Position numbers and translations under genes: made by a program
Part shown: piece by piece, positions 1 through 46,382 of the stretch
Position numbering within the stretch: the stretch's first letter is position 1
Layout: every line of letters starts with the position of its first letter
From: Jaapia argillacea MUCL 33604
Lineage: Eukaryota > Basidiomycota > Agaricomycetes > Jaapiales > Jaapiaceae
Length of the DNA: 64,000 bases
NCBI GenBank assembly: GCA_000697665.1
Contig: KL197714.1
Location: 1,387,557 to 1,451,556, forward strand
Direction of reading: 5' to 3'
The notes under the pieces: generated by a model
Told to the model about the DNA's origin: nothing
The model's input: only the letters and a program-made list of their open reading frames with translations
Database searches by the model: none

Positions 1-49
1 TGAGTATCGGAACCTGGCAAATGTACATCCACATCCCCATCCCTGGGCC

Positions 50-2480
50 TCAATGGGATATTCGACTCCCGTATTTGACACCACGCGGGAGTGTTGATAC
101 GTTCCGGATGGTATCATTATCCAACAGTAGCCTACCATGGGCAAGGGTCGCTGGAGCGAAAGCTGAGAACGCTGTCGAAATTACGACTGAGAGAAGCACT
201 TACCCCCAGTAATATGCCTGTGTTCCATCCTGCTGAGGTCTCGCCATCAAAACGTACAGCGGACCGGCTGAGATCGCAGAGATTGTGTCGGGGACAACCA
301 AATCCTGCACCAGGGAGAAGATGATCTTCGAACCTCGAGTCTTCTCGAGAATACATGCAATCAACTCCTCGGGTTCGTCCTCGCTAGGTTTGCTCGTAAC
401 AGGACGATAGAGTGAGCTGATGCAAGGAATATGGGAAGCCTTGACCCATCCTACATAGTGGCTGTCGATATAGAGTGCCAGGTCGTCGTCATATTGTCGC
501 TTATATCCAATACGCAAGAGAGACCAGAAAACCTGCCGCATATTCAGTGGGGTGGGTGGGAGGATGCAAGGGAACATAAATTGACCTTCTTTTTGCCTTG
601 AGAGTTTGGCTGGAGGGGGTCATCGACACAAATACCCTCGCATATCGTCGCATACCAGAAGGTGTGCGGTTTTTTGAAGGCTCGCTTCTTGTACCAGGCT
701 TCAAGATTGAGTTTGATAGCAAGTGCAGATGTCCGGGCTGATCGATCTCCATTATCGACGATGGTGCCGAGGATGCCAAGTATCTCGTCGTAGCAATCGA
801 CGTCTTCGTCGGCAACTTGAATTACATCTTCAACCGAACATTCTGAACTGAAATTTGGTGAAACCTAGTTACAATGTGAAGGCACAAGGAAGAGCAACGA
901 ATACATACTTCACAGCAATGGTGACAAGCTGCCGACAAAGTGATGTCCTGATCTTGCGAGGTAATCGACGACTCGGCATATCCCACGGCTCAGAAGATAT
1001 ATTGTGGTAGAAATCATGGCGTGCTTCGCCCGGCTTGAACATCCATTGTCGAAGGAACGCACCCCAAAGAGAAAAGAATGGTCCTGCAAATAATTCTACG
1101 AGCGATGGCCATTCCGGATTCCCTGTTGTACTACGATGTTGAACGTGAGTTGGGGCCACGGAGCGCTTCGGCAGTTTCGAACGAATCTCTGGGGTAAGCA
1201 GAGCGGCGAGATAGTTCTTGTTCGGTAAGATTCGATTGATGATTCGGTCCGCAGATTCGCCGGCTGGAAGAGGGGGAAATGAGCTGATGTCGAGCTAGAT
1301 AGAGTGCCGTCCTTACTACCAACAGTGTCGAAATATGATTGACACACCGGGACCACATAGCAATCCCAGAGTTGGGCACCACATATATCAGAGCACACCG
1401 ACGCAAATTGTGAAAGGATGCGAGCGTATATGTGGCTGAGAATGGGGTCGTCGCTCTGGGAAAGCTCGGCCCATTGATAAACCACCTCAGGTTTTATTGC
1501 CTCCAACAAAGTGGGGTGGGCGTGAACGATGCGCTCCAGGTTCGAAATCCGGAGGCCTGCGAGTATCTGGTGGTCTGAAATCCTAGAAGCCAGTCGATCA
1601 GAAATTCTTATGGTCAAAAAAGGCTTGGACCCACGTTGTGAATTGGATGAGGGTCGCAATAGATTCTGCACGATGGTCAGAAAGAATTCCAGGGCCAAAG
1701 CGATCTCCATAATCCAGGCTCTGGATGACTGTAAGGATCTCGCTCTCTGATAAGGATACAAGTGCGCGTCTTGACGGGGCAAGCAACAAATCCCGCTGTG
1801 GGTGACGGCGAGGCAGCGAGAGCAACTGGACCTGTTTTCTCTCAAGGATGTCGAAGACGCCGAGGTCGAGAAAGATGATCCGGGCCCGAGGATCGACGTA
1901 TATGAGGGTTGTGATGTAATACAATGCTAGAAACTGGTTGTTGGGGTTATGATCTCTTCAAAGACAATCAGTGCAAACGAAGCAGAATGTAACAGAGACT
2001 AACGCACAGCAGATAATCTACCAGCTTCCGATAATACGCAGGCAATCGGGCTTGGATTTTCGAGACTGACTCTCCAGAACTCGTTAGTGATTTGGTCGAA
2101 TGTGATAGCGCGATGGGAATGAGAGACCTGAGCGGCCGAGGAGCTTGAAAAAGGGAACGGCGGTGACGTTCTGCACCAGATAGACCATCGATAATGTCCT
2201 CCATAACAGCATTCGGCCCAATTCGAAGCCGTTCTGCGACACTTCCCGCAGCTACTTTCAATTTCTTTCCCGCCCTCCCAATCCACTTTCCGATCGTACA
2301 TCTAGGACCTGGGTTGTCCGAAAGAGTGGACGTGCTCGCCGTTTCGAGCCCAAAACAACCGCCTGCGTTACGGTTGGCGTCCAGCAAGCCGAAAAGATCC
2401 CTGGCTGGAATCGAGAACGTCTCCTCAGTGGATGTTTGTCCTTTCCCCTGGTCATTGCGTGAATGCCTGTCGGGAGACAT
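50..2480 (-). CDS. GPG-family protein, copy 1 (unknown function, C-terminus shortened)
   Basis: I do not recognise a named domain. It is the paralogue of the gene at 5239-7744 and can be spliced the same way. The first exon carries a low-complexity Ser/Thr start, then a GP-x-x-TIGKWIG motif and a helix ending AERLRIGPNAV. Later exons contain LLLAPSRRALVSLSESEIL, a DPILSHIYARILSQ helix and a C-terminal ALYIDSHYVGWVKASH segment, all matched in copy 2 and more loosely in the gene at 14336. The last exon (CTCCAG acceptor, then ATLAHGR) stops at 50-52 because GGA of copy 2 is TGA here, so about 30 C-terminal residues are lost. The start is the ATG giving MSPDRH, aligned with MSPHRH of copy 2. No signal peptide or clear membrane span is seen. 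Gene presence is well supported; function is unknown. Confidence 0.7.
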
Positions 2481-3680
2481 TAGAATGTGATAGCGCTATA
2501 GGTGTGGGCTAATATGGGTCCTCCATTTGAATGTTGCCCAGCACAGCTTGATAGAGGCCGCTCACAGGAAAGGTTGCGCAGCCAAAGCCATAGCCTGAAC
2601 CTTGAGGATAGAAGGTCAGATATCGCAGCTTACATATCCCGAGGTCCTCGGGAGGGAGATTCGGATCAGCCCGAATCACATTTTCTGGTCGAGACTTGAC
2701 TCGGTCAGAGTGCAGTGCAGAACGCCGAGCCCATACTTTACCGAGCACGTCTCGTAGAATCTGAGGCTCCTTACATATCGTGCAATATCTCGAGATATTG
2801 CATTTGTTTTGATAATTTGTTCGCAGACCATCACGTTCAGAGATTGAGTCACATTCGACATATTCGCAAATGGGTCGCCTGCGAATTTATCGCTACGATA
2901 GTGGAAAGGTTCCAATGGATTTAGTCGACATGGTGGCTGGCTGCGTCCGTGCTTACGTACCCTCTCTGACTATAGGCGCAGCTCGACCCGTCCTGACGTG
3001 GCTGAGGGAGCACTCGGGAGCGACAATCCAATGTCAAGAAATATCCGCGAGCCTCAAAAGCGTATCTGCCACCGACAAAGCCAATCTCTCCGGCGTCGTG
3101 GTCGATTGATAAATTTCTCGCAGCAGATGCTTCATACATTGCCATCCTACAGGGCTGGCACACTGATGGGTGAAATACGAGGGGATGTGACTCATCGTGA
3201 GTGGTGACGCGTGACCTGTACAAGTCGGTCATGGCCAGTGACGAAAATGTCACGTTCCCCTCGACTCCTCTCTCTGCCGGCTGACTAGCTTCGACAGCGT
3301 CTCTTTTTGAGTTTTTATTAGAGTCTCATTCCCCCCTCTTGGCCACTCGATGACAGCTGAGCAGATCTGTTGCGACTGGACATGTGCATATCCCCTTCAA
3401 GTTCCGCTTGCTTTACAGTTTAATTCTGCTTTGCCACGCTCAGAAGTCATCGCTGCGTTTGGTATGTTTCTGATGGATTGTCAGATCGCAGTTGCAGGTG
3501 ATCATGAACAGACGACTGCTGCGTGCTTGCAATTTCAAAGATCTGATGGACGAGAAGAGCATTGCGGAGCACGTTGCTAGTTCTACGTGGATGGGTATAT
3601 AGACCTGGCCCACCAAGACCTATCGATCATCCAAACACTCACCAGCAAATCTATTCGCCTCTACTTCCTACAAAACCACC
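2481..3680. other. Intergenic: upstream of GPG copy 1 and of AtaL gene 1
   Basis: No gene seen. Bases about 2520-2715 match 7795-7985 upstream of GPG copy 2, so the tandem duplication extends beyond the genes. Bases about 2850-3060 resemble 39,840-40,000. From about 3200 the sequence resembles, in inverted orientation, the regions before the AtaL genes near 39.1-39.4 and 42.5-42.8 kb. Confidence 0.5.
3564..3602 (+). promoter_or_regulatory. Core promoter of AtaL gene 1: shared 15-mer plus TATA box
   Basis: GCGGAGCACGTTGCT lies at 3564-3578, followed by GTATATAG at 3595-3602, about 80 bases before the ATG. The same 15-mer occurs without mismatch before three other AtaL genes, each next to a TATA motif. 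Confidence 0.55.
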
Positions 3681-4184
3681 ATGGTCAACTACGCTGTATC
3701 CGCCACCCGAGTTATCCCCCCACGTGTGACGAGAGCCCAAGCATGGTCAGCCCTCAAAGATGGCGCTAAGAACCCTGTAGGGTTTGGGGGAATCACTGAG
3801 AGCACTATCGTGTCGGAGAACGAAAACGGGACGGAGTTCGTTAGGAAGTTCGTGAGGATGGGGAAGGAACACACACAGGCGGTAACTCTTTTCGAGCCAA
3901 CTTGGGTATGTAGTCCGTTCCCGATTTCAGCTGTGACGTTCTAAACGTTGATCTTCTTTTGTTGGTAGTACAAAGCCAAAGGGCAAGACCCTGACTCCGA
4001 GGTGACCATCATCTTGAGTTCCGATAAGGAGGGTGTCAACTACATCACCTTCACATTCCATTGGATTCACCCTGATGTCGAGGCAGGGTCAGAGCAGGAT
4101 AAGCAGATGGCAGCGCAGTATGAAGGGATAGTTAACAATGCTGCGGACAGTGCTATCAAGGCTGTTGACGATATCAAGGCCTAA
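3681..4184 (+). CDS. AtaL-like (DUF1857) START-fold protein 1
   Basis: Two exons joined at GAGCCAACTTGG | TACAAAGCC (donor gtatgt, acceptor ttggtag) give 146 residues. The order AQAWSALK, NPVGFGGI, SENENGTEFVRK, VTLFEPTW, ILSSDKEGVNYITF and GSEQDKQMAAQYEGI is that of the fungal AtaL/DUF1857 family, small SRPBCC-type proteins with a ligand-binding cavity. The family name comes from a gene in the acetylaranotin cluster of Aspergillus; a catalytic or carrier role is not settled. The ATG follows CAAAACCACC and matches the start of three paralogues here. There is no signal peptide, so it is probably cytosolic. It lies 220 bases ahead of a second AtaL gene on the same strand; the same two subtypes are paired again at 37,685-38,980. 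Confidence 0.88.
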
Positions 4185-4383
4185 TCTCGGGTTGGTCATA
4201 GAATGTCGAGGAACCAAGTACGATGTGGGTTTGATTGTACTCCATTGTAGCACATGTCCACCAGGAAATCGAAGCTTAGCGGTCTCATTTACTGACTTGC
4301 TAAGACATCGAATCATCACCTCGACGCAGCCACCTGAATTACAATGACGACGACAATCGGGTTCTAAACAAACAAGCGCTCGG

Positions 4384-4404: not shown

Positions 4405-4978
4405 ATGAACTATCGTCCTGGTGCTTCGCCAAATCTCATTGCAATCAACGAAACCTACAATGATCACGACTGCAGCCACTCGCACCGTTTCGCCCAAATC
4501 TCACAAAGCCAACTTTGGGAAGCTCTCAAAATCAAAGCTCGTAAACCCATCGGCTTCATTGGAGCCTTCAAAGAATGCACAGGGATTTCTGAGTATGAGA
4601 ACGGGTTGGTCAGGAGAGCAGTCACTACGACGGGCACCGTCACGACAGAGGACGTCACTTTTGTCGAGCCTACCTGGGTGAGTATCGCGCTCGGCTATCC
4701 ACTGTAGATAGGGAACTGAGGATTTATTTGTCGGGGTGATGGAGGTGCACTTTAAAAGTAGGGGGGATGGCAAAGAAGTGTTTAACGTCATCAGCCTGAG
4801 TACCGACGAACAGGGTCGGCTCCTCCTCACGTACTCGTTCAATAGGACGGAGCCTGGGGTGCAACCTGGGTCAGAAGAAGAGAAGGAGCTAAGCAGGAAC
4901 TGGGTCAAGATCGCCGGGGGTGCCGTGGAACAGTCGATCAAGAAAGTCGAGGAGCTGGTGAAGGAAGGCAAGTTGTAG
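4405..4978 (+). pseudogene. AtaL-like (DUF1857) gene 2, probably frameshifted near its start
   Basis: The body is clearly an AtaL protein: SQLWEALKIKARKPIGFIGA, ISEYENGLVRRAV, DVTFVEPTW, then after an intron VHFKSRGDG and a C-terminal SFNRTEPGVQPGSEEEKEL, nearly identical to the paralogue at 37,685-38,192. That paralogue starts MITTAATRTVPP. Here the matching ATG (4460) reads MITTAATRTVSP and then loses the frame, because one base is missing between about 4485 and 4507. The frame can only be entered from ATG 4405, which lies about 16 bases after the TATA box. Either the protein uses an unusual start or translation of the correct frame has been lost. The second exon is intact, so the lesion is recent. 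Confidence 0.65.
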
Positions 4979-5238: not shown

Positions 5239-7744
5239 TCACGTAGAAAAGATGGTTACAACGGCGAAATCTGATTGAGTATCGGAACTTGGCAAATGCA
5301 CATACATCCCCATCCCCGAACCTCCATGGGATATTCCACCATATTCGATGCCATTCGGGAGTGTTGATACATTCCGGATGGTATCATTATCCAACAGTAC
5401 CCTACCATGGGCAAGGGTCGCTGGGGCGAAAGCTGAGAACGCTGTCGAAATCACGACTGAGAGAAGCACTTACCCCCAGTAATATGCCTGTGTTCCATCC
5501 TGCTGAGGTCTCGCCATCAAAACGTACAGCGGACCGGCTGAGATCGCAGAGATTACGTCGGGGACAACTAAATCCTGCGCTAGGGAGAAGATGATCTTCG
5601 AACCCCGAGTCTTCTCGAGAATACATGCAATCAGCTCCTCGGGTTCGTCCTCGCTCGGTTTAGTCGTAACAGGGCGATAGAGGGAGCTGATAGAAGGAAC
5701 ATGAGAAGCCTTGACCCATCCTACATAGTGGCTGTCGATATAGAGTGCCAGATCGTCTTCGTACTGCCGCTCGTACCCCATACGCGAGCTGGACCAGAAA
5801 ACCTGCCGCATATTCAGTGAGGTAAATGCGAGGATTCGAGTGGAATTAAATTGACCTTCTTTTTGCCTCGAGAGTTTGGCTGGAGGGGGTCATCGATGCA
5901 AATACCCTCACATATCGTCGCATACCAGAAGGTGTGCGGTTTTTTGAAGGCTCGCTTCTTGTACCAGGCTTCAAGGCTGAGTTTGATAGCAAGTGCAGAC
6001 GCTCGGCTTGATTGATCTCCATTATCGACAATCATGCCGAGGATGCCAAGTATCTCATCGTAGCAATCGACGTCTTCGTCGGCCACTTGAATTACATCTT
6101 CGACCGAACATTCTGAACTGAAATTCGGTGAAACCTAGTTAGAATGTGAATGCACAAGGAAGAGTGACGAATACATACTTCACAGCAATGGTGACAAGCT
6201 GCCGACAAAGTGATGTCCTGATCTTGGGAGGCAATCGACGACTCGGCATATCCCACGGCTCAGAAGATATATTGTGGTAGAAATCATGGCGTGCTTCGCC
6301 CGGCTTGAACATCCATTGTCGAAGGAAAGCACCCCAAAGAGAAAAGAATGATCCTGCAAATAATTCTACGAGCGATGGCCATTCCAAATTCCTTGTTGTA
6401 CTACGATGTTGAATCTGGGTTGGGGCCACGGAGTGCTTCGGCAGCTTCGAACGGATCTCTGGGGTAAGTAGTGCGGCGAGATAGTTCTTGTTCGGTAAGA
6501 TTCGATTGATGATTCGGTCCGCAGATTCGCCGGCTGGAAGAGGGGGAAATGAGCTGATGTTCAGCCAGATAGAGTGCCGTCCTTACTACCAACAGTGTCG
6601 AAATATGATTGACACACCGGGACCACATAGCAATCCCAGAGTTGAGCACCACAGATATCAGAGCACACCGACGCAAATTGTGAGAGGATGCGAGAGTATA
6701 TGTGGCTGAGAATAGGATCGTCGCTCTGGGAAAGCTCGGCCCATTGATAAACAACTTCAGGCTTTATAGCATCCAACAAAGTGGGGTGGGCGTGAACGAT
6801 CCGTTCCAGGTTCGAAATCCGGAGACCTGCGAGGATCTGATGTTCTGACACCCTAGAAGCCGGTACATAAAAAAGCTCATGCGGGGGGAGAAGGTTCGGA
6901 CCCACGTTGTGAATTGAATCAAGGAAGCAATAGAATTTGCACGATGGTCAGGAAGCAATCCAGGGCCAGTGCGACCTCCACAGTCCAGGCTCTGGATGAC
7001 TGTGAGGATCTCGCTTTCTGACAACGATACAAGTGCGCGTCTTGACGGGGCGAGCAATAAATCCCGCTGTGGGTGACGGCGAGGTAGAGAGAGTAATTGA
7101 TCTTGTTGCTTTTCAAGGATGTCGAAGACGCCAAGGTCAAGAAAGATGGACCGGGCCCGAGGATCGGCACATATGATGGTTGTGATGTAATACAATGCTA
7201 GAAACTGGTTGTTGGGGTTATTGTCTCTGCGGGAAAAATCAGAACAAAATGGAGTCGACTGGAAAGTAACGCACAGGAGATAATCTACCAGCTTCCGATA
7301 ATACGTGGGTAGTCGAGCTTGGATTTTGGAGACCGACTCTCCGGAACTCGCTGATGTGGTGGAATGTGATAGCGCGATGGGAATGAGAGACCTGAATGGC
7401 CGAGGAGCTTGAAGAAGGGAACGATGGTGGCGTTCTGCACCAGATAGACCATCAATAATATCCTCCATAACAGCATTCGGTCCAATCCGAAGTCGTTCTG
7501 CAACACTTCCCGCAGCTATTTCCAACTTCTTGCCCGCCTTCCCAATCCACTTTCCGATCGTATACCCAGGCCCAGGGTTGTCCGAGAGAGTAGACGTGCT
7601 CGCCGTTTCGAGCTCAAAACAATCGTCCGGATCGCGGTTGGCATTCAGCAAGTTGAACACGTCCCTCGCTGGAATCGAAAACATCGGCTCATCGTATGTC
7701 TTGCCCTTCTCCTGGCCATTGTGTGGGTGCCTGTGGGGAGACAT
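5239..7744 (-). CDS. GPG-family protein, copy 2 (unknown function)
   Basis: This is the most complete of the tandem pair. Visible junctions include CTCCT|gtgcgt...cgcag|AGACAA, ACAAC|gtgggt...ttctag|GGTGTC, GTTG|gtagta...ttccag|CCGGCG and a last exon beginning ATLAHGR. The N-terminus is Ser/Thr-rich, followed by GPGYTIGKWIGKAGKKLE and AERLRIGPNAVMEDIID. Central and C-terminal parts look globular and Trp-rich; no transmembrane span or signal peptide is evident. The last exon ends TLPNGIEYGGISHGG followed by about 30 more residues and a stop at 5239-5241. It is a direct duplicate of 50-2480 about 5.2 kb away, including roughly 240 bases of upstream DNA. The ATG (7742-7744) was chosen because MSPHRH aligns with copy 1. 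I know no function. Confidence 0.75.
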
Positions 7745-7985
7745 TTGAGTACGATGGTGAGCTGCAAGTATGCACCAGTGTTGGGCCTTGATGATTTGAA
7801 TGTCGTTGAGCACAGTTTGATAGAACCCGGCCCGGCCTCTCACAGGGAACGTTGCGCAGCCACTTAAGAATAGAAGACCAGATATCGCAGCTCATCCCGA
7901 GGCTCTCAAGAGGGGAATTCGGATCAGCCCGAATAACATCTTCTTGTTGAAGACTTGACTCAGTCGTGCAGTGCAGAACGCCGAG
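5265..7985. repeat. Direct segmental duplication of 1-2715
   Basis: Bases about 5265-7985 match 1-2715 over coding, intronic and upstream sequence with scattered substitutions and small indels. The AtaL gene pair at 3681-4978 is not part of the duplicated unit. Confidence 0.75.
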
Positions 7986-8395: not shown

Positions 8396-9580
8396 CTAGT
8401 CATCGTTAGGTGTCGTACAATACACAGCATAGTCCATTTGCCTCAGCAAAATCAGCCCAATGGGCGCAATAGTCTCAGCTCCAGGATCATTCCTCCCGAT
8501 GCAGACCTTCAATAATGTGCAGTCACTCCTCCGGGTGACGTCTGTCCTCAACACGGTTCTGCCGTTCCCATCCTTCAATATCACATTCGGTGCGTAACTG
8601 CCGAAAGTCCACCGCTTATCGACAGCACGGAGACTCGTGGACGAATTATCCCGCGAGTCGGCGAGGTTGAAAGAGAGGTAGTCGTTCGCAGGGTTGAATG
8701 ATCCTGATATGCATGGTGTGGTAGTGGTGTTTCCCGTAGCAGGGGACGTGCAGTTCCCTGTGATGGTGTTACTGATGAAGTCATAGCCGATGCTATGGAC
8801 CGAGGGGTAGCGAGGGTCAGATTCATTCGCGGAGAGGGTCGAGGAGTCGACGGTACGTAGTCCGAACGACCAGAAGTCCGCCGACTGCTGGAAGATGTCG
8901 TAGGAATATACGGGGTTATTGTAGAGGTAGTAGTGAGCGACGTTTGGATAATAAGGCGGGGCGTCATAACCCTGGGCATCAATGATGACTGAGATTGGGT
9001 AGCCATCGCATCCATGGTCCCATGCCCACTACAAGTCAGACGTGATCGTCAAGTTCTGAGAGGTGCAGTGAATGGAACTTGGAAACTTACCTTCTCCGCC
9101 ACTGACAGTCCGACGAAAGGTCCGAAGAACGGACATAAGATCATGAGCACAGCAACTGGGAACATGACGAAAATGTTCCAGAAAGTCCACAACGTATTCA
9201 ACAACGTCGACTTTCCATACCCACTGGACACTCCTCCCGAAAAGAAGTAGGCCCAGAAGGGGATCATGTTGACGAGACCCCAGACGAAGCCGAACATGAA
9301 CATCATAACTTCATACCCCGTCCAACCGCTCTGGGTTTTGTTGATGGCGTTGTGGGGGTTAGGATGTATTTCGGCTTGAACATCTGGAAAAAAGGGCATG
9401 AGTAGGATTCGCCAGTGGCGAATGCCAGGGAGACGTACAGAAGTAAATCCATGCTGCGTCCCCACAGTTGATTGCCAGCCAAAGCTGCGAGCGAAGATGT
9501 GAGCCTCGGCAGAGTCAACGAGGAGAAGAAAATCTCACAAAGACTAGGATAAACCCACAGGTTACCGAACCACTCGCCAT
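8396..9580 (-). CDS. AWxHGC-family membrane protein 1 (three spans plus ectodomain)
   Basis: Four exons. Exon 1 (MASGSVTCGFILVF) joins LWLAINCGDAAWIYFY through gtgaga...cgcag; exon 3 begins VQAEIHPNPHNAINKT and holds two spans (VMMFMFGFVWGLV and FWNIFVMFPVAVLMILCPFF); exon 4 begins WAWDHGCDGYP. The N-terminal third has three hydrophobic segments. The remaining ~240 residues are soluble, with several Asn-x-Ser/Thr sites (NESD, NCTS, NTTT, NSST) and cysteines, ending CTTPNDD. That suggests a plasma-membrane or secretory-pathway protein with a glycosylated lumenal or outside domain. I do not recognise the family; five copies occur in this window. The ATG aligns with the paralogue at 55,776-56,958. 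Confidence 0.75.
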
Positions 9581-10741: not shown

Positions 10742-11196
10742 TCAAAGGGTAATAGGGACACAGCCAAGGGAGATGAGACCGCCCTGTCATGAAAGCAGGC
10801 GATGGTGAGCACATTTTCGCAACCATCCCATCACTTCCACTCACAAACGAATTGTTTTCGCAGCAAACGGGAGAAGCGGTGCAAGCACCTCCGTTTCCGA
10901 CACCAAGGACGCTGATCGGGGAGCAGGTCAAACCCACGAGGCCTGTGATTCCGGAAAGGTCAATGCCAAGGAGCCCTGCGAGTGAGGTGACACCTAAGGA
11001 GGTCGACTACAGATTCACAGTCAGACCGTCGAGGAATTCCTTGTGGGTGAAATTGACTTACGTCCTGAACGGAGTTGCAACAGTTCAAGGTACCGACGTT
11101 GCATTGGGAAGTCTGCCTGACCTCCATATCGGCAGTGGGCATGGCGGTCGCAAGGATAGCAGAAACGGTCAAGGCGACGAAAGCACGGGAGAACAT
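10742..11196 (-). CDS. Class I hydrophobin 1
   Basis: Three exons: the first ends CNSVQ-D, the second runs from [11 protein letters not shown] to ENNSF, and the third is [13 protein letters not shown]. The 112-residue product has an N-terminal signal peptide ([15 protein letters not shown]) and eight cysteines spaced C-X6-CC-X32-C-X13-C-X5-CC-X12-C, the class I hydrophobin pattern. Such proteins are secreted and self-assemble into amphipathic rodlet layers on hyphae and spores. The last intron (gtgagt...atgacag) lies just after the CC pair. A TATA box lies about 70 bases before the ATG. A close paralogue with matching introns is at 40,273-40,728, and the shared sequence continues about 1 kb upstream of both. 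Confidence 0.93.
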
Positions 11197-12807
11197 GTTT
11201 GTAAGTGTGGAGATGCTGAACGACTTTGAGGTGTTCGACTGGAGTTCTGAGTTGAAACTGTACTCTCTTTTATACACCCAGAAGGTTTCCTTTGACGTCC
11301 AATTGGAACCTGGCGGATGCCTGACCGTAATGTGTTCCGTTCAATTTTGACGTTCGTGGATATAATTCGGCTCTCCCTATCGCCCTGCGCACGAGGTTGC
11401 ATCGACATCAGTTCCGACTGTCGAGTTCGAGAGAAATGCCTTGAATCTGGTAAGCTTCCTGCGCCCAAAGTCCGAAAACTTCTCATCCACTTGCTGCTCG
11501 TCAGACACTCAAATTTGAGGTAACGTGAGGAGGCCACGCGCGCGACTGAGTGGGTCTGCGGGCTCCCGTCAAGTTTGTGCTTTCTCGTCTCGAGGATGTC
11601 TTCAAGTTAGTCGCCCTACATCCTGGCCCGGGGTCGTAATCTTCTTCTCGCCGCCGTCCCATTACATCCTGGCCTTGGTGGTGATAATAGTTCTAATTGA
11701 CGAGCCGGCAAAGATCTGCATATGACCTTATGTGTCGTGTCAGGCTGTCTGTCTTTGCTTCCCAACCCTCGCCCCCCATCACCTTGGCCCACCTTGGCGC
11801 TTCTCATGTTCGTGACATCGTGTGTTCCTCTTTCCCTGTCTTTCCTCGCTGTTCCAGTAAATTCGCTGGAAATACGACATTTCCGGTCATTCGCATCTCG
11901 TAGGGTCACCTGAAGAAGGTCACGAATCCACTCAAGTGATACGGCATCTTTCTCACAGGCACTTACTAGACAAGACGTACACACCGAAGGCTTTCCCGAA
12001 GTACTCCTCAGGCACGCTTTGGAGAATTACCGTAACTCTCCAATTCACTGACATTCTCACTCTTGACCGCTGCGAAGTTGAAGTTACCTGAGTGGCTGTT
12101 GGCTTCGACGAAAAGGGGTTCGATGCTTCAACTTACGGTATTGCTGGTGACGGAAACTCGGTGTAGGAACACTGCTTGACGATAACCCCTCCCAGCAGCA
12201 GGATCCGATCGGTCAGTCTATGAATTCCTACGACTCTACATTCATTTGTTCTCAGACTACAGCTCGTTCATTTTAAGTATAATCCACAACTCTTGGCAGT
12301 GTTATTTGCCCTATTTTGCCAGTTTCGTGATCAAACACATGTGGGTCAGTGTCATTTGGGCCACTCACGTCGAGGAAGACATGGGACAACCTAATCCGAT
12401 TTAGGGCTACGGGTCTTATAGTCTCAAAGCTCCTCCTCTCTAGCTCTAGCGTCCGCCCTTAGGCCTTGGGGTCTCACTCTTCCATCCACTCGCTCTCCCG
12501 TGAACTCAATTGGTCCTTTCGTTGTCTCGCATAAAGTACCCAGAAGATCTACCTTCCCGAACAACTATTGGCCCCACAAGCTCAAAGCCATCGGATAATC
12601 TTGGAGCACAACCTTGCCCTCGACCCAACATAACATCTCGTTCCGGATCTCCAACTTGTTCATAAAGCCACTCGGCGGTCTCGCAACCGGATGGTCAGCA
12701 GCGGACCTACAGCAATGTTCGTATTCGATTAGTCAATGTATTGTTAGACGCTTCAAGGGTACTGGACGCATCGCATTGAAGGAGGATGAATTATGGGGAG
12801 AAGACAT
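11197..12807. other. Long upstream region of hydrophobin 1, no gene seen
   Basis: Up to about 12,185 it is the duplicated hydrophobin upstream region; 12,190-12,800 shows no convincing coding sequence. Confidence 0.4.
11267..11273 (-). promoter_or_regulatory. TATA box of hydrophobin 1
   Basis: TATAAAA on the minus strand, inside a stretch (gtactctcttttata on the plus strand) also found before hydrophobin 2. Confidence 0.5.
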
Positions 12808-13986: not shown

Positions 13987-14335
13987 GGTCAAGCCAGATT
14001 TTCGGAGCTTTCAGAAGTTCCGGACAGCGAAGGCTAGAGTCTATTGGGGACCGGTCTATGGACCGTGGACCAAGAGACCATTCGCCACCGTTCAGCGTTC
14101 AACGTTCAACGACAACCACACTTTGACAATGACCCTTCGTGAGCGTATTCGATATCTAAAGCTCAGAATTAAGCTATGCTTTTACTCCGTGTCTTCCGCC
14201 TCCTTTTATCCCCTCCACAAGCATGGGCGCTTATCTTCGCCTGAAATGGGATGACTTCTCGAACTGCCCCGGTGCGAACAGCCACCAGCCTGATGCTGTT
14301 GAAAACCACTGTCTCCAACTTACTCTCTTTTTCCT
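13987..14335. other. Shared upstream region of two divergent genes
   Basis: Between the mitochondrial protein gene (minus) and GPG copy 3 (plus). Includes a direct CGTTCAACGTTCAACG repeat near 14,095. No gene seen. Confidence 0.4.
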
Positions 14336-25910: not shown

Positions 25911-26131
25911 GGAAGCAAGCAAGCGAAAGGAATAGAAGTCGAACCAGCGACAGGAGAATATAGAAGATATGAAAGCAATGTACAGACCAGCCGGTGAACA
26001 CGCAGTTGTTCCAACATTCCAATCAATCGATTTTTGACAATCGTGGGAGACGAAGCCAACATAATCAAGAGTGAGGCAATTTTCAGGTACAGGGACGCAA
26101 TACCAAAGTGTTTGAAATCTGTCAGCGCCCG

Positions 26132-26719
26132 TTACACAGACTCAAGATCAAAACAAGGGACGTACCGACTTGGCTGGACCAACAGCCACAATCTGACCCA
26201 AGAACGTTCCTCCTGGTGTCTACGAGGTTGAGCCTGGCGACGAGACGGTTTGATTATTTCCTCCCGACTTTCGTTTTTGAACGAGCCATGGATTTTGGAC
26301 GTGGCGTGATTCCGTCGATGGTGGAGAACGGTAGTACACGATTGCAGTTCTAGTAGTGGAGACGTGGCTGTGTAGTCTATGCATCGGCTTGGGGGATAGT
26401 TGAGTCGAGTGGGCGAACCCGGGGGCTGCGGCAACAAGCCGTGATTCACATTGTGAATACGGGGAATGTGAAGGTGATATCGTATCTCCATTAGACCCAA
26501 TTGAGGCAGAATGAAATACCACCACCTCCAGGCGCGGTGAGGCGGTAGAGTGGATTGGGATGAACACGAGTCCGGATTTGACGTTTCTCCATTGGAAGTT
26601 TGGGACGAAGAGGAGGATACGAGCTCATCCGTGTTGTTGTTGGTAGGTATCAAAGGAGTGGAGATGATGATGGGATCAGAAAGAGAGTGATTCGACTGTG
26701 TATGTCGAGTTGGTGCCAT
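26132..26719 (-). CDS. Hypothetical protein, weakly supported
   Basis: An open frame of 195 codons starting MAPTRHTQSNHSLSD, with a Ser/Thr/Asn-rich beginning, a Trp-rich segment (HRAWRWWYFILPQLG) and a basic tail. No domain, paralogue or splice evidence is available. The opposite strand also has a charged, helical-looking open frame (26,600-26,938: TWNEKEKETLLKLHKYRKE), so at most one of the two is likely real. Confidence 0.25.
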   Translation of the reverse strand: MAPTRHTQSNHSLSDPIIISTPLIPTNNNTDELVSSSSSQTSNGETSNPDSCSSQSTLPPHRAWRWWYFILPQLGLMEIRYHLHIPRIHNVNHGLLPQPPGSPTRLNYPPSRCIDYTATSPLLELQSCTTVLHHRRNHATSKIHGSFKNESREEIIKPSRRQAQPRRHQEERSWVRLWLLVQPSRYVPCFDLESV

Positions 26720-37684: not shown

Positions 37685-38192
37685 CTACAACTTGCCTTCC
37701 TTTATCAACTCCTCGACCTTCTTGATCGACTGTTCCACGCCACCCCCAGCGATCTTGACCCAGTTTTTGGTTAACTCTCTCTCTTCTTCTGACCCAGGTT
37801 GCACCCCAGGCTCCGTCCTGTTGAATGAGTATGTGAGGAGGAGTCGGCCTTGTTCATCGGTACTAATGATGTTGTACACCTCGTGAATATCTTCCCTAGC
37901 TTTGAAGTGCACCTGTATCACCCCGATAATTGAGTCCTTTAAGTCTCCATCTGAAGTGAATCGTGATACTCACCCAAGTTGGCTCGACAAAGGTGATGTC
38001 CTCCGTCATGATCGTGCCCGTCGTAGTGACAGCTCTCCTGACTAACCCGTTCTCATGCTCAGAAATCACTGTGGATTCTTTGAAGGCTCCAATGAAGCCG
38101 ATGGGGTTACGAGCTTTGATTTTGAGACCTTCCCAAAGTTGGCTCTGCGAGATGTTGGGCGGAACGGTGCGAGTGGCTGCAGTCGTGATCAT
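37685..38192 (-). CDS. AtaL-like (DUF1857) START-fold protein 3
   Basis: Starts MITTAATRTVPPNISQSQLW and continues IKARNPIGFIGAF, ISEHENGLVRRAV, DITFVEPTW; the intron (gtgagt...atacag) leads to VHFKARED and the exon ending SIKKVEELIKEGKL. It is the intact counterpart of the frameshifted gene at 4405-4978 and defines the second AtaL subtype here. A TATA box at 38,255-38,260 is about 63 bases before this ATG; the in-frame ATG at 38,246 is too close to that box to be the start. It follows AtaL gene 4 on the same strand by about 280 bases, the same order and spacing as the pair at the left end. Confidence 0.87.
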
Positions 38193-38476: not shown

Positions 38477-38980
38477 TTAGACCTTGATATCGTCAACAAT
38501 CTTGATAGCATTGTCCACAGCACTGTTCACCATCCCCTCGTACTGCACTGCCATCTGCTTATCCTGCTCTGACCCTGCCTCGACATCAGGACGAATCCAA
38601 TGGAATGTGAAGGTGACATAGTTGACGCCCTCCTTATCGGAGCTCAAGATGACGGTCACCTCCGAGCCGCTGTCGTGCCATTTTGCTTTGTACTACCAAC
38701 AAAAGAAGATCGTTGTTCAGATCGTCGCAGGTGGAATGGGGAATGAACTACATACCCAAGTAGGCGTGAAAAGAGTCACCGTCTGTGTCTCTTCCTTCCC
38801 CATCCTCACAAACTTCCTCACTAACTCCGTTCCGTCTTCGTTCTCGGACAAGATGGTGTTCTCAGTGATTCCCCCAACCCCAACAGGGTTCCTAGCGATA
38901 CGTTTGATGGCTGACCAAGCTTGGGCTTTAGTGGCAGGTGGGGGGATAACTCGGGTGGCGGATACGGCGTAGTTGACCAT
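38477..38980 (-). CDS. AtaL-like (DUF1857) START-fold protein 4
   Basis: Same subtype as AtaL gene 1: MVNYAVSATRVIPP, ARNPVGVGGITENTI, VTLFTPTW, intron, then YKAKWHDSGSEV, ILSSDKEGVNYVTF and the end AIKIVDDIKV. The intron sits after the Trp codon exactly as in the other copies. Distinctive changes are EPTW to TPTW and GFGG to GVGG. The promoter region shares the 15-mer and TATA box listed below. Confidence 0.88.
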
Positions 38981-39097: not shown

Positions 39098-40272
39098 AAT
39101 GCTCTTCTCGTTTGAGATCACGGGGCCGCCGTCGTCTGTTCTACGATCACCTACAATCGCGATCTCATAATCCATCAGAAACATACCAAACGCAGTGGTG
39201 ACTTCTGAGTGAGCTAAACTGTAAAGCAAGCGGAAGGGGATACTTACGCACATGTCCAGTCGCCACAGATCTGCTGGGCTGCCATCGATCGACCAGGAGG
39301 GGGAGTGAAACTGTCATAAGGACTCAGAACGAGACGCTGGCGAAGAGTCAGCCGACAAATGAGCGAGCCTAAGAGGCGAGGAGAGACCGTGACAATCTCG
39401 TCACCGATCACGCGTTAGGCGGTGACACGGGTCACTATGTCCTGTCCTCCGTCTGGTTTGCACATCACCCGAAAGCGTGCTAGTACTGGCTCTGTGCAAT
39501 TGTATCAAGGTTCTGCAAGGCTCTGTCAATCGACGAAAACGGTGGGGATATATGGTTCCACATCCGAGTTGGAAAGTGTCGGTGGCAGATGCAGTTTTTG
39601 AAGCTCGCGAATATTTAGTAACTTTCCATTGTCGCTCCCGACGGCTTGCTGTACCTGCTCTTGCTGCAATCTGGTGAGATTTTTAAGGACTTGAGCCGCT
39701 ACTCAATTTGATTCGAGCCTCAGAGGGGTCGTGGTGAGCTGTGTTTCTACGTACATCTGTCAGTGGTCGACTCATATCCGTTATGATGTTCTGACGAGCT
39801 GCTGTATCAGTTCATCACATCCAGAAGATTGGCTCAGATTGGACATATCCTCAACGATTGCGAATCTTTCGCCGCGACGGTAAAAGATCCCAATGGATTT
39901 TATCGACCTTTGGGCATATAATCATGGCTGGCTGCTTCCATGCTTACGTGCCCTCTCTTTTAACAGTAGGGACAGCTCGACCCGTGGAGTCACCGGAGTA
40001 ACGACACCTGATGTGGTTGAGGGTATGGTTAAGCTCAATGCAGCCGACTCTGACATAGGCGTAGAGCCTGCGATTTGACATTCTGCGAACAAATCACCAG
40101 AACTGAAATTTCTCATCGATCCGAGCCGTAGATGTTTTCGCGTAAACTTTCGTTTCTCACTTGGTATTCACTACTTCATCCAGCCTTTAGAAATGCCTCC
40201 CCGTCCTACCGTCCTAGTCCCTCCACCTTCTTTAAACACAACAGAAGCTCTTTCCCCCCATGGCCCTGCCTT
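39098..40272. other. Intergenic: AtaL gene 4 upstream region and a stretch like 2.85-3.06 kb
   Basis: No gene. 39,100-39,330 resembles the upstream regions of AtaL genes 1 and 5. The minus strand has GACATGTGC followed by GTAAGT and, 20 bases on, TTTACAG; the same is seen before gene 5. About 39,840-40,000 resembles 2850-3010. Confidence 0.45.
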
Positions 40273-40728
40273 TCAAAGGGTAATAGGGATGCAACCAAGG
40301 GAGATGAGCCCGCCCTGTTGCGAAAAAAGACATCCGTGAACGCATTTTCGCAACTATATTATCACTTTCACTCACAAACTGGTTATTTTCGCAGCAAACC
40401 GGAGAGGCAGTGCAAGTACCTCCGTTTCCGACGCCAAGAACGCTGAGCGGGGAGCACGTCAAGCCCACAAGGCCTGTGATCCCGGAAAGGTCGATGCCAA
40501 GTAGTCCTGCGAGTGAGGTGACGCCTAAGGAGGTCGACTCCCAAACTCATGGTTAGACCAATCGAAGGGTGAGTCGGGGCGAACGCAACCTACACTCTGA
40601 ACGGAGTTGCAGCAGTTCAATGTACCGACATTGCACTGGGAAGTCTGCCTGGCCTCCATATCGGGAGTGGGCATGGCGGTCGCAAGGATAGCAGAAACGG
40701 TCAAGGCGACGAAAGCACGGGAGAACAT
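40273..40728 (-). CDS. Class I hydrophobin 2
   Basis: 112 residues, three exons in the same places as hydrophobin 1: CNSVQ-S | [11 protein letters not shown] ... ENNQF | [13 protein letters not shown]. The signal peptide [15 protein letters not shown] and all eight cysteines are kept, with spacing C-X6-CC-X32-C-X13-C-X5-CC-X12-C. Only a few residues differ from hydrophobin 1 (for example TADMEV to TPDMEA, SPIS to SPLS, GGAC to GGTC), so the two probably form similar surface rodlets. The first intron is changed most (gtaggt...gggag). The ATG agrees with that of the paralogue. Confidence 0.93.
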
Positions 40729-40800
40729 GTTTGTAAGTGTAGAGGTGCTGAACGACTTTGAGGTGTTCGACTGAAGTTCTGAGCTGAAGGTGTACTCTCT

Positions 40801-40806
40801 TTTATA
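40801..40806 (-). promoter_or_regulatory. TATA box of hydrophobin 2
   Basis: TATAAA on the minus strand about 73 bases before the ATG, in the same context as hydrophobin 1. Confidence 0.5.
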
Positions 40807-41924
40807 TGCACAGATGCTTTCTGTCGGCATCCAATTGGAACGCGACGGAGGTTTGACCGTAATGAGTTCCGTTCAATTCGGTCCAATCCAATTCTGCCTA
40901 TCGAATGCGAGGAAAATACTGCCTTGATTCTGGTACGCTTCTTGCACCCAAAGTCCGACACCTTCCCATCCACTCGACTATTCCTTGTCGGACACTCAAA
41001 ATCGTGCAACGTGAGGAAGCCACGCATACGACTGAGTGGGTCTGCGGACTCCCGTCGAGTTTGTGTATCCAAGTCTCTAGGATGTCTTCGTCGCTCTACC
41101 CCCCTCAAAGTCCTGCTGCACAATTTTCTTCTCGTCAGCGTTTCATTCCCTCCTGACCTTGGTGGTGATCATAGTTTGAATTGGCGAGTTGATGATTTAC
41201 ATCTGTATTCATGCCGTGGGCAGTCCGGCTTGCTTCCCCGTGCTCGCCATCCATCACCTTGGCCTACCTTGGCGCCTCCCATGTTCGTGACATCGTGTGC
41301 TCCTCTTTCCTTGCTGCCCTAATAAATTCGCTGGAAATACGAGATTTCTAGTCATTGGCATCTCGTAGGCCCACCTGCAAAAGGTCACGGATCCACTCAA
41401 GTGGTACGACATCTTTCCCACAGGCATGCAAAACGACAAACCTGCGCACCGAAGTACTCTCTCAGGCACGCTTTGAAGAATTACCGTAATGTTTCAATAC
41501 ATTCACGTTCTCGCTGTTTTACTGCTTGGCTCTTGGCTTTGACAACGGTGTGTCGGATTACGGTAGCTTCACTACTTAAACTTACGGGATTGGTTATAGC
41601 GGCACCTTGGTCTAGGGGCACTGCTTAGCGGTGATCGCCAGCAACCGAAGTCGATCGGTGAGTACTTGACGCACCACCACAAGATATCCTCGAGCAGATG
41701 GTTCATCTATACCCACTGGTAGCCTCAATGAGCACACGAAGATCATAAAACACCGCCGAGCATCCCTACCAACCCCAGCAAGGTCAGTGATGATTCATCC
41801 ATGTTTGATGTCCCGCGAGCTTCGATGTCACGGTGTACACGTGTGTATATGCGTTACAATGGAATACTGCACAATCAACCCCACGTCTTACAAGGTGCTA
41901 TCGCGTCCCATGACCAACCCGAGA

Positions 41925-42431
41925 TTAGACCTTGTTCCTACCGTCCATACTCTGGACAGCGCTTTCCACGGCGTTGTTCACTATCCCCTCGTACTGTGCT
42001 GCCATCTGCTTATCCTGCTCTGACCCTGCCTTGACATCAGGGTGAATCCAATGGAATGTGAAGGTGATATAGTTGACACCCTCCTTATCGGAACTCAAGA
42101 TGATGGTCACCTCGGAGTTGGGGTCTTGGGATTTGGCTTTGTACTACCAACAAAAGAATATCGATGTTTAGAATGTCGCAGCTGAAATCGGGAACGGACT
42201 ACATACCCAAGTTGGCTCGAAAAGAGTCACCACCTGTGTGTATTCCTTCCCCATCCTCACCAACTTCCTCACTAACTCCGTCCCGTTTTCACTCTCGGAC
42301 AAGATCGTGCACTCGGTGATTCCCCCAAACCCTACAGGGTTCCTAGCGCTATCTTTCAAGGCTGACCAGGCTTGGGCTTTCGTCACATGTGAGGGGATAA
42401 CTCGGGTGGCGGATACAGCGTAGTTAACCAT
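41925..42431 (-). CDS. AtaL-like (DUF1857) START-fold protein 5
   Basis: MVNYAVSATRVIPSHVTKAQ, ARNPVGFGGITECTI, SESENGTELVRK, VTLFEPTW, intron, YKAKSQDPNSEV, ILSSDKEGVNYITF. The C-terminus departs from the others: after GIVNNAVESA it reads VQSMDGRNKV instead of IKAVDDIKA, so the last helix is altered. Otherwise intact. It stands alone, without a partner of the MITTAATRT subtype. Confidence 0.86.
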
Positions 42432-43335: not shown

Positions 43336-43837
43336 CTAAACCTTCAAATCACCAGCAGCCTTGATAGCGCTATCTGCAGCCTTGTTCGCTATCGCTTCGT
43401 ACTGAGCTGCCATCTGCTTATCTTCCTCTGACCCCGCCTCGACATCAGGACGAATCCAATGGTACGTGAAGGTGATATATGTGGCACCCTCCTTATCGGA
43501 GCTCAAGATGGCGCTCGCCTCGGAGCCGCTGTCTTGCCATCTGGCTTTGTACTGCCAACAACGGAGATTCATCGTCCAGGTCGTCGTAGGCGGATCGGGA
43601 AGAACTACGCACCCAAGTAGGCTCGAACAGAGTCACGGTCTGTGTCTCTTCCTTCCCCATCCTCACCAACTTCCTCACAAACTCCGTCCCATCTTCGTTC
43701 TCGGACACGATCGTGCTCTCGGTGATTCCCCCAAACCCTACAGGGTTCCTAGCGTTATCTTTGAGACCTAACCAAGCTTTGGCTTTAGGGACGTTTGGGG
43801 GGATAACTCGGGTGGCGGATACGGCGTAGTTGACCAT
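43336..43837 (-). CDS. AtaL-like (DUF1857) START-fold protein 6
   Basis: MVNYAVSATRVIPPNVPKAK, ARNPVGFGGITESTI, SENEDGTEFVRK, VTLFEPTW, intron, YKARWQDSGSEASAI, SSDKEGATYITFTYHWIRPD, GSEEDKQMAAQYEAI and an Ala-rich end AAGDLKV. All family positions are kept. An in-frame ATG further upstream (43,924) overlaps the promoter and is not used in the paralogues, so the ATG at 43,835-43,837 is preferred. Confidence 0.87.
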
Positions 43838-43947: not shown

Positions 43948-44824
43948 CATGGCTTTCTCGCTGATGAGATCTTTGAAATTAGAAGTACGCAGCAGTCGCC
44001 TGCTCACCTGCAATCGCGTTCTGACGATCTGGCATCAGGGGTCAGAAGTCCTGAGACGTGGAGAAGCGAAGCTAAACAAGCCAAATTTGGAGGGGGTATG
44101 CGGATGTCCAGTAATAGTGCAAGTGCAACTCCAGATGTGGTCAGTTGCCATCGATCAAAGAAATGCCTTCCAAATGCCGTCGAAGACGGACAACGAGGAC
44201 ATCAGTGATCACCAACTAGTCACTCGTTCAGCTTCACCAGCATCGCATGGCCATGAACCAGGTCGAGTTCCCTCCTACCCACAGACTCCCGGCACTGAAT
44301 TCGAATAAATATCTTGTGCTTAGGTTAGGGATGTCATGCCTCGAATCAAATCACCCAGAGTGTGATATCGAAATGACATAGAAGCGGAACGGCTCTCGTA
44401 CAACCACCTCAAACTGTAAATTCCATTCACCCATCCTGCGGTACAGGGCTGCGAGTGACGGATCCATCTCAACACCGTGTCGCAATGTCCCCAACTTCTG
44501 CACCCTCTGCGCTGAACGAGAACCCCATACCATCTGGCGCTACAACTATCCCGGGCCGAACCACATTTCAAATTGCCACAGGTGGTCCAACGGGTGCAAC
44601 CTTGCGGCCACTGCCCCTCAGTGTAATAAGCCAAATTTAGATCGGGTCTGCGCATGTCCAGTGCAAGTGTTGTATAGCTCAGGAGGTGGAACTTGAAAGC
44701 CACCCTAGGAAATCACTTGACTTGGCTTCCCTTAGGCTCAGCACGAGTGAGAGCAACCGCCACTTGACATCGCTTCTACCTCCCTCCCATCCCTGTTCAT
44801 TCGTCGACAACGCTGCGGTATATA
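43948..44824. other. Intergenic, with one arm of a ~120-bp direct repeat and a short open frame
   Basis: 44,168-44,296 resembles 46,262-46,382. A minus-strand frame at 44,351-44,533 (RHGVEMDPSLAALYRRMGEW, VVVREPFRFYVISI) reads like protein but is too short to identify; it may be a gene remnant. Confidence 0.4.
44168..44296 (+). repeat. Direct repeat arm, left
   Basis: Contains TTCCAAATGCCG, CGAAGAC, GCATGGCCATGAAC, GGTTC-like and ACAGTC-like words shared in order with 46,262-46,382, about 2.1 kb away. The two arms enclose the AWxHGC pseudogene and the GPG fragment. Confidence 0.6.
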
Positions 44825-45971
44825 ATGGCGAGAGTTTCAGAAACCTGTGGGCTTACCCTGGTCTTTGTGAGTCATTATTCTCCTCGTCGACTCTGTCGTC
44901 GCTGACATCGTCGCTTGTAGCTTCGGTTGGCGATCAACTGTGGTGACGCAGCATGGATCTACTTCTGTACGTCTCCATGACATTCGCCACATGCTAATAG
45001 TACTCATACCCCCTGCAGATACTCAAACCGAAATGCATCCTAACCCCCACAATGCCATCAACAAAACGATGAGCGCTTTGAACGGGTATAAAGTTATGAT
45101 GTTCATATTCGGCTTCTTCTGGGGTCTCGTCAACGCCATCCCTTTCTGGGCCTACTTTGCTGCTGTTAAAGTGTTCAATGGGTACAGAGTGACACTGGAA
45201 CATTTTCGTCATGTTCCCGGTTGCTGTGCTCATGATCTTGTGTCCATTCTTCGGACCTTTCATCAGCCTTTCATTGGCGGAGAAGGTAAGTTTCCAGGTT
45301 TTATTCACTGCACCACTCGGAACTTGACGATAATCCGACTTTTAGTGGGCATGGGACCATGGATGCGATGGCTACCCAATCTCAGTCATCATCGATGCAT
45401 AGGGTTATGCCGCCCCGCCCTATTATCCAAACGTGGCTCACTACTACCTCTACAATAACCCCGTATACTCCTACGACATCTTCTAGCAGTCGGCGGAGTT
45501 CTGGTCATTCGGCCTGCGTACCATCGACTCCTCAACGCTCTCCGCGAACGAATCTGACCCTCACTACCCCTCCGTCCATAACATCGGCTATGACTTCATC
45601 AGTAACGCCATTACGGGGAACTGCACATCCCCTACTACGGGAAATACCACCACCACCACACCATGCATCTCGGGATCGTTCAACCCTGCGAACGATTATC
45701 TCTCATTTAACCTTACCGACTCGCGAGACAATTCGTCCACCAGTCTCCGTGCGGTCGATAAGCAGTGGACTTTCGACGGAATGCGAAGTTGAAGGATGGG
45801 AACGGCAGAACGGTGTTGAAAACAGACATCACGACGAGGAGCGACTGCACCTTGTCGAAGGTCTGCATCGGGAGAAATAACCCTGGAGCCGAGACCATCG
45901 CGCCCATTGGGCTGATTTTGTTGCGACAAATGGATTATGGTATGTATTGTACAACACCTAGAGATGACTAG
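44825..45971 (+). pseudogene. AWxHGC-family pseudogene 2
   Basis: The exon structure of gene 1 is still visible: MARVSETCGLTLVF, intron, LRLAINCGDAAWIYFY, intron, TQTEMHPNPHNAINKT, MMFIFGFFWGLVNAIPFWAY. A 26-base deletion near 45,185 then shifts the frame. In the last exon (WAWDHGCDGYP...) two CAG codons have become TAG at 45,400-45,402 and 45,484-45,486. A 10-base deletion near 45,780 shifts the frame again before the end KDGNGRTVLKTDITTR...CTTPRDD. Four independent lesions make this a clear pseudogene. It is closest to genes 1 and 3 and is oriented opposite to both. Confidence 0.88.
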
Positions 45972-46040
45972 AATGTAACGTAGCCGTGGAGGTGGTTATC
46001 TAATCCCTTTTAGCCCACGCCTATGTATCCTCGCGAAGGG

Positions 46041-46236
46041 AAGTCCATGCAATCAACTCCTAGGATCCGTCCTCACGCGGTTTGGTGGTAAAATGACGAA
46101 AGAGGTAGCTGATGGAAGGGATATGAGAAGCCTTGACCCATCCTACATAACGGCTGTCGATATAGAGCACCAGGTCGTCTTCACATCGTCTCTTGTACCC
46201 AATACGCAAGAGAGACCAGAAAACCTGTCGTGAATT
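46041..46236 (-). pseudogene. Fragment of a GPG-family gene
   Basis: On the minus strand it reads VFWSLLRIGYKRRCEDDLVL, YIDSRYVGWVKASHIPSISY and TTKPRED, then a stop where the paralogues have GAG (TAG GAG TTG ATT GCA). This matches the exon near the C-terminus of GPG copies 1 and 2 and starts exactly at their exon border. The rest of the gene is absent. The similarity ends near 46,041, just after a TTGCATG word. Confidence 0.85.
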
Positions 46237-46261
46237 TCAGTGGGGTAGATGGTCACGGTGA

Positions 46262-46382
46262 CGACTTCCAAATGCCGCCGAAGACAGGCGACGAGGAGAG
46301 TCACTAGTTTCGCCGCCAGCATTGCATGGCCATGAACTAGGTCAGGTTCCCTCGCCTTCACAGTCTGTGCTGGCGCTCCATC
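46262..46382 (+). repeat. Direct repeat arm, right
   Basis: Partner of 44,168-44,296. Confidence 0.6.

Follow-up and report, generated by a model that had tools for sequence, protein, structure and literature searches.

Four gene families in two blocks

The window analysed here is a stretch of 64,000 nucleotides of Jaapia argillacea. Self-comparison of the DNA showed that four unrelated families, here denoted GPG, AtaL, AWxHGC and hydrophobin, are common to a left block (1-12.2 kb) and a right block (37.6-46.4 kb), both situated near the end of the contig (Table 1). The alignments between the blocks extend through introns and spacers. The AtaL a+b pair at 3238-4981 matches 39404-37682 in inverted orientation (86.5% identity, excluding gaps), AWxHGC at 8371-9696 matches 45996-44700, also inverted (86.5%), and the hydrophobin with its upstream DNA at 10708-12064 matches 40243-41518 (82.4%). 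Within the left block, the two GPG copies align over 1-2729 and 5276-7985 with 87% identity. Gene order and orientation are non-collinear between the blocks; collinearity is confined to the AtaL a-b pair, which keeps its order in both, as the initial annotation had claimed, and is inverted as a whole. Two extra AtaL-a copies lie in the right block at 41.9 and 43.3 kb.

Table 1. Positions of the genes and other features in the window
Feature	Position	Strand	Remarks
GPG copy A	203..2480	-	several exons; ORFs, 87% DNA identity to copy B
GPG A/AtaL-a head-to-head spacer	2481..3680	.	pieces recur by right AtaL-a: 39813-39985 direct, 39641-39577 inverted
AtaL-a, left	3681..4181	+	two exons, open; PF08982 E=2.3e-21
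AtaL-b, left	4460..4978	+	frame broken in exon 1
GPG copy B	5473..7744	-	without AtaL partner; ORFs and DNA alignment
AWxHGC, left	8399..9580	-	three hydrophobic segments, then 210-residue cysteine-containing domain
Class I hydrophobin, left	10742..11196	-	three exons, eight cysteines, open; PF01185 E=1.6e-25 (spliced model)
Upstream DNA of left hydrophobin	11197..12064	.	matched in right copy, up to 41518
Diverged GPG homologue between blocks	14303..16925	+	ORFs and sequence comparison
AtaL-b, right	37688..38192	-	open; PF08982 E=2.8e-31
AtaL-a, right R1	38480..38980	-	open
Hydrophobin, right, with upstream DNA	40243..41518	-	exons open, start at 40728
AtaL-a, right R2	41931..42431	-	open
AtaL-a, right R3	43339..43837	-	open, more diverged
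AWxHGC pseudogene, right	44700..45996	+	two in-frame TAG and a frame break
GPG relic	46046..46252	-	about 206 bp; DNA alignment
AWxHGC third copy	55779..57094	-	older branch
AWxHGC two tandem copies, more diverged	58579..61903	+	sequence comparison

The two blocks with the same four families had been proposed in the initial annotation, and both the self-comparison and the window-pair count given below bear this out, as the stop codons, frame break and alignment in Table 1 do for the AWxHGC pseudogene and the GPG fragment annotated in the right block. Other parts of that description needed correction. The upstream DNA said to be kept with the hydrophobin is indeed shared, over about 0.87 kb rather than 1 kb. 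The genes between the blocks, described as mostly unrelated, include the diverged GPG homologue. The left block extends past the window, where a third GPG-AtaL unit (GPG with AtaL a+b) was overlooked at -10.07 to -5.68 kb. The account of the blocks likewise left out four more AWxHGC copies, three of them at 55.7-62 kb in the window and the fourth immediately past it.

With 76.5 bits for one AtaL-a model and 108.6 bits for one AtaL-b model, AtaL of either type exceeds the 27-bit Pfam threshold for PF08982, acetylaranotin biosynthesis cluster protein L, but no biosynthetic gene of an acetylaranotin-type cluster was found among the 10 other ORFs scanned, which are part of the window's ORFs. AtaL also gave a weak sequence match (E=0.0024) to the solved protein 2ffs (PA1206), which we take to have a START-like fold. 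The window hydrophobins are class I members of PF01185 in which nothing unusual was seen; the spliced model of the left gene scores 89.9 bits and has the eight-cysteine pattern.

A Pfam search reporting E values up to 1 gave nothing for GPG, and no PDB sequence match was found; a structure model built from exons 1-2, with an intron read through in frame, reached a pLDDT of 42 and was uninformative. AWxHGC proteins carry hydrophobic segments in front of a domain with six invariant cysteines, and none of the five members searched matched a Pfam family up to E=10, including the tubby, LURP-one and scramblase families. The AWxHGC model, which is of low confidence (pLDDT 53), consists mainly of strands and a final helix. 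Foldseek gave no match with E <= 0.001, and its top match was 2fim, human TULP1 (E=0.017, probability 0.99, TM 0.48 by query). The tubby-like fold is a 12-stranded barrel around a hydrophobic C-terminal helix. The top structural match and the strands with a final helix resemble the Tubby-like C-terminal domain, from which AWxHGC differs in its lack of a sequence match, its invariant cysteines and the preceding hydrophobic segments; that AWxHGC may form a tubby-like barrel is a weak lead.

Genomic distribution and divergence of the copies

A genome search found AtaL and AWxHGC solely in this stretch, the latter with six copies in total. All matches to AtaL, to AWxHGC and to the close clade of GPG came from a span of about 155 kb on a single contig. 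The GPG family as a whole is dispersed, with at least 115 matches on 29 contigs, which collapse by hand to about 62 loci, and so are the hydrophobins (at least 59 matches on 12 contigs), whose top-scoring relatives besides the two window genes lie in an array about 40 kb leftward on the same contig. Only 4 of the ~62 GPG loci have a hydrophobin within 20 kb, all four of them in this stretch; outside it, about 49 kb or more separates a GPG locus from the closest hydrophobin, unless the two are on different contigs. GPG copies at 94 and 143 kb stand without the other three families, as do the AWxHGC copies at 55-69 kb.

To judge how exceptional the block pair is, we took the surrounding 259 kb and counted pairs of 12-kb windows separated by 15 kb or more, using ten local families laid out by hand. 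At least three of the ten were shared by 113 of 24,310 pairs, and all 113 are overlapping placements around the one left/right pair; no other separated pair in the 259 kb reached three. Other sequence families, too, occur in multiple copies across these 259 kb, among them ones for which Pfam names BTB and DUF6593 (one copy each). A separate multi-gene block copy adjoins (60392-63546 matching 67749-70891, 84%), and the far right of the contig holds several repeats of >90% identity. No tRNA gene lies within the window, and pattern search detected no telomere-type repeat in the last 259 kb of the contig, a stretch containing N runs, so that a subtelomeric position finds no support there.

With exon masks set by hand, noncoding K between left and right is 0.164 for the AtaL pair, 0.170 for the left copy against AtaL-a R2 and 0.177 for AWxHGC, so that the AtaL and AWxHGC divergences are compatible with one date; the GPG relic differs from copy A by 0.174, over 206 coding bases only. 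The hydrophobin block stands at 0.229 +- 0.018, ~2.7 standard errors above the AtaL pair. Ks is 0.27 for AtaL-a R1, 0.35 for AtaL-b, 0.30 for the hydrophobin and 0.47 +- 0.08 for the AWxHGC pieces, the highest of the four families. Because of the higher hydrophobin K and the AWxHGC Ks, a single event is not proven. Ka/Ks is 0.07-0.20 in the AtaL-b, hydrophobin and AWxHGC pairs. Younger and older copies exist as well: noncoding K is 0.10 between the AtaL pairs of the left block and of the unit left of the window, 0.30 between the left AWxHGC and that at 56 kb, and 0.33 for AtaL-a R3. Between the tandem GPG+AtaL units, divergence is greater in GPG (K 0.13-0.16) than in AtaL (0.06-0.10), suggesting that the unit was perhaps copied in more than one step.

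Origin of the two blocks

The two blocks probably arose by ordinary duplication and rearrangement of local DNA near the end of the contig. Two stretches hold diverged copies of four genes most likely because this DNA repeatedly copies and reshuffles genes of its own. In one segmental duplication, or a few, a neighbourhood with GPG, AtaL-a, AtaL-b, AWxHGC and a hydrophobin would have given rise to a copy some 30-40 kb away; inversions and deletions would then have broken it up, leaving the right AWxHGC and GPG as relics, and further copies of GPG and AtaL would have been added on the left. The main copying may have been a single event, and the genes were presumably kept one by one rather than as a working set. 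The homology at the DNA level, the inversions, the relics, the copies younger and older than the blocks and the multiplied neighbouring families are observed directly. The earlier description of genes copied and reshuffled together agrees with the shared multi-gene DNA blocks, the inversions and the like divergence of AtaL and AWxHGC. The non-collinear gene order and the older AtaL-a R3 count against this reading.

It is possible, though rather unlikely, that independent single-gene duplications landed by chance in the same two places with no block duplication. Such copying would account for the non-collinear order and the more diverged hydrophobin, and AtaL-a R2, R3 and the AWxHGC genes at 55-69 kb do resemble single-gene copies, but the equal noncoding divergence of the AtaL pair, AtaL-a R2 and AWxHGC, the pieces of the GPG/AtaL-a spacer beside the right AtaL-a and the want of a second window pair sharing three of ten families argue for block copying. 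Capture and dispersal of gene pieces by a mobile element, Helitron-like or similar, is most improbable. The blocks are short, partly inverted and abruptly ended, a direct repeat of about 100 bp (44167-44274 and 46265-46353) flanks the right AWxHGC pseudogene and GPG relic, and the >90% repeats at the far right of the contig would also suit an element. When two border stretches were searched for element ends, the border repeat was found in the genome only at its two sites and the only match to the right spacer was the left one, in a search that skips very common words, which lowers this idea; that AtaL, AWxHGC and the close clade of GPG are confined to about 155 kb of one contig also speaks against it.

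The initial annotation had seen in the blocks an accessory cluster at the hyphal surface. In such a module the hydrophobin, a membrane protein with a possible lipid-type barrel, a START-like ligand binder and the GPG protein would cooperate, and selection would keep and copy the set. AtaL and AWxHGC are confined to this stretch, as would be expected from a functional module too; the head-to-head GPG/AtaL-a unit followed by AtaL-b occurs twice (in the left block and left of the window) and may have left traces at a third site; the majority of copies in the window are open, with Ka/Ks <1. Yet the right GPG and AWxHGC are dead, so that the right block is an incomplete set, the solitary GPG and AWxHGC copies do without their supposed partners, and other nearby sequence families behave in the same way. 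The scattered, unlinked copies that the annotation had named as evidence against a cluster were found for GPG and hydrophobin, which are neighbours (<=20 kb) only here; AtaL and AWxHGC have none, but as single-locus families their nearness to their neighbours is unavoidable. With one upstream region representing each family, no 7- or 8-mers were shared, and 11 shared 6-mers compare with 9.9 expected. A cooperating surface cluster is improbable. Still slightly less credit goes to its more specific form, a lineage-specific surface lipid-handling module copied as a set and made up of the head-to-head GPG/AtaL-a unit with AtaL-b, a hydrophobin clade of its own and AWxHGC membrane proteins that may form a tubby-like barrel. 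Nothing found here shows the four genes to work as a unit, and among the papers listed no title or abstract opening treats these families together.

Local duplication and rearrangement also fits what is described for other fungi. Birth-and-death evolution is recognised by paralogous blocks that include noncoding DNA on the same chromosome and by a mixture of intact copies and relics of several ages, and both are present. A study of the hydrophobins of Phlebia brevispora and Heterobasidion (PMC3879219) describes birth-and-death of clustered fungal families, with clustered copies, duplication and pseudogenes in large basidiomycete hydrophobin families. Compared with that account, the present case involves four different families, two of them without a Pfam match, copied within one stretch and at least partly as a block.

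Overall, the locus is best read as a case of birth-and-death evolution of the ordinary kind that includes a tidy duplication of several genes. As a by-product it brings to light two families without a Pfam match, GPG with about 62 loci and AWxHGC with its six copies and weak tubby-like lead. The case illustrates how four unrelated families can come to recur at two sites like a gene cluster, with no functional tie between them, where other families also multiply.

Content and surroundings of the two blocks

Self-alignment bore out the initial annotation in that four families, GPG, AtaL (types a and b), AWxHGC and hydrophobin, are common to the left and right blocks as DNA-level copies. Pfam supports AtaL (PF08982) and hydrophobin (PF01185); GPG and AWxHGC gave no reported match at E up to 1, nor did the AWxHGC domain at E up to 10 in any of five copies. 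Since a third GPG, AtaL-a and AtaL-b unit lies a short way left of the window, the left block is larger than first described. GPG and AtaL-a lie head-to-head in the left block and in this unit. The reading frame of the left AtaL-b is broken, and the right AWxHGC carries two in-frame TAGs and a frame break. The stretch between the blocks, first described as mostly unrelated single copies, includes a GPG homologue at 14.3-16.9 kb. Family lists and gene models were compiled manually, and parts of the sequence are N.

Features of the blocks and their surroundings on contig C6 (window positions; negative values lie to the left)
Feature	Position	Remark
Hydrophobin array	about -47 to -30 kb (C6:1340525-1357592)	seven copies
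Third unit	-10.07 to -5.68 kb	GPG, AtaL-a, AtaL-b; a short way left of window
Left block	1-12.2 kb	GPG x2, AtaL-a, AtaL-b, AWxHGC, hydrophobin
GPG copy A	203-2480 (-)
GPG, second copy	5473-7744
AWxHGC domain	8399-9028	alignment A1
Inter-block GPG homologue	14303-16925
Repeat protein	22761-26141 (-)	long, proline/threonine/serine-rich; alternating 27- and 30-base repeats; strong GC skew
~200-bp unit	28246-28771	three imperfect copies
Right block	37.6-46.4 kb	AtaL-b + AtaL-a pair (inverted relative to left), hydrophobin (same orientation as left), two extra AtaL-a copies, AWxHGC pseudogene (inverted), GPG relic (~206 bp)
Right AtaL-a R1, R2, R3	38480-38980, 41931-42431, 43339-43837
~100-bp direct repeat	44167-44274, 46265-46353
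AWxHGC + DUF6593 gene block	60392-63546, 67749-70891 (beyond window)	84% identical; adjoined by a 302-bp inverted repeat (96.7%)
Repeated family, five loci	29.1 kb (one member)	this member with BTB domain (PF00651)
Repeated family, seven loci	51.7-53.5 kb (in window); 70.9-89.5, 132 kb (beyond window)
Repeated family	62.7, 70.1, 146.7 kb	first member matches DUF6593
Three more repeated families	-91/-78/-74, -99/-97, -67/-65 kb	possibly not all genes

A protein-level self-search of the last 259 kb of C6 detected these further repeated families, and a second multi-gene block is duplicated there, indicating that local copying, including that of several genes together, is typical of the stretch and not peculiar to the four families. 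Ten local families, mapped manually, were compared between 12-kb windows paired at least 15 kb apart. Three or more families were in common in 113 of 24,310 pairs, all of them overlapping placements around the single left/right block pair, which is therefore exceptional within the stretch; block duplication explains it without invoking function.

Ages of the copies and mechanism

Left-right noncoding divergence (K, with approximate, hand-set exon masks) was 0.164 +- 0.016 for the AtaL pair, 0.170 +- 0.020 for R2 and 0.177 +- 0.029 for AWxHGC. Between the GPG relic and copy A the divergence was 0.174 +- 0.032, measured across 206 bases of coding sequence. The AtaL and AWxHGC divergences fit a single date. 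The hydrophobin block gave 0.229 +- 0.018, mostly from upstream DNA. Either this copy is older, perhaps, or the DNA upstream of it is under less constraint or aligns less well. Greater age is shown by AtaL-a R3 (K 0.33) and an AWxHGC copy at 56 kb (0.30). In the tandem GPG + AtaL unit the AtaL part (0.10) is younger, the GPG part (0.13-0.16) not clearly so. Ks, with errors of 0.06-0.08, was 0.27, 0.24 and 0.43 for left AtaL-a against R1, R2 and R3, 0.35 for AtaL-b, 0.30 for hydrophobin and 0.47 for the AWxHGC pieces.

The spacer between GPG and AtaL-a has two segments (2829-2991 and 3014-3077) with counterparts at 39.6-40.0 kb, close to the right AtaL-a, where a GPG gene may therefore also have been present at one time. 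The two copies of the ~100-bp direct repeat lie on either side of the right-block relics of AWxHGC and GPG. In genome searches that skipped very common words, neither of the two borders tested yielded a dispersed repeat: this direct repeat had no third place, and the sole match of the right spacer was the left one. The simplest reading is that a recombination-driven duplication with inversion would have produced the two blocks.

Genome-wide distribution and function

The initial annotation proposed a gene set copied together, possibly an accessory cluster active at the hyphal surface. Following the genome-wide check that it named, we searched the genome (43.7 Mb in 95 contigs), taking counts as lower bounds. 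GPG (at least 115 matches on 29 contigs, hand-collapsed to ~62 loci) and hydrophobin (at least 59 matches, 12 contigs) are dispersed with no tendency to adjoin: a hydrophobin lies within 20 kb of 4 of the ~62 GPG loci, all in this C6 stretch, and the next is ~49 kb away. AtaL (at least 14 exon matches, ~9 genes, C6:1377072-1431354) and AWxHGC (at least 7 matches representing 6 genes, C6:1395955-1456767, with identical positions for either of two queries) matched only this stretch. GPG copies with at least 69% identity over long stretches occur only on C6, and by score the two hydrophobins of the window are closest to those of the hydrophobin array. Two dispersed and two stretch-restricted families are the pattern expected of local duplication; function is also compatible with it. 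The window spans C6:1387557-1451556 and ends 95 kb short of the end of C6 (1,546,528 bases), and a pattern search of the last 259 kb found no telomere-type repeat. Introns together with hydrophobins suggest that the genome is fungal.

Hydrophobins are surface coats, and AtaL proteins, which we take to be START-like, weakly match 2ffs in sequence. AWxHGC has three hydrophobic segments and sequons, and its domain six cysteines invariant in 5 copies; for a low-confidence model, which has a final helix, Foldseek ranked the tubby domain of TULP1 highest (E=0.017, prob 0.99). The GPG family, with three window copies and ~62 loci genome-wide, lacks a Pfam or PDB match; helices are predicted in its first exons with poor confidence. 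The N-terminal motif of the family, with TxGxxxxxAG and AERxxxGPxA, occurs twice in both the 14.3-kb copy and L047. Upstream of one representative per family we found no shared 7- or 8-mer, and 6-mers at chance number. Comparison of hydrophobin, AWxHGC and AtaL-b pairs gave Ka/Ks of 0.07-0.20, that of GPG copies and of close AtaL-a copies 0.21-0.67, which points to constraint that would act gene by gene, more weakly on AtaL-a.

With GPG and hydrophobin dispersed and other local families also multiplied, the proposed module finds no support. We conclude that the stretch reflects ordinary birth-and-death evolution together with what is probably one rather neat multi-gene duplication.
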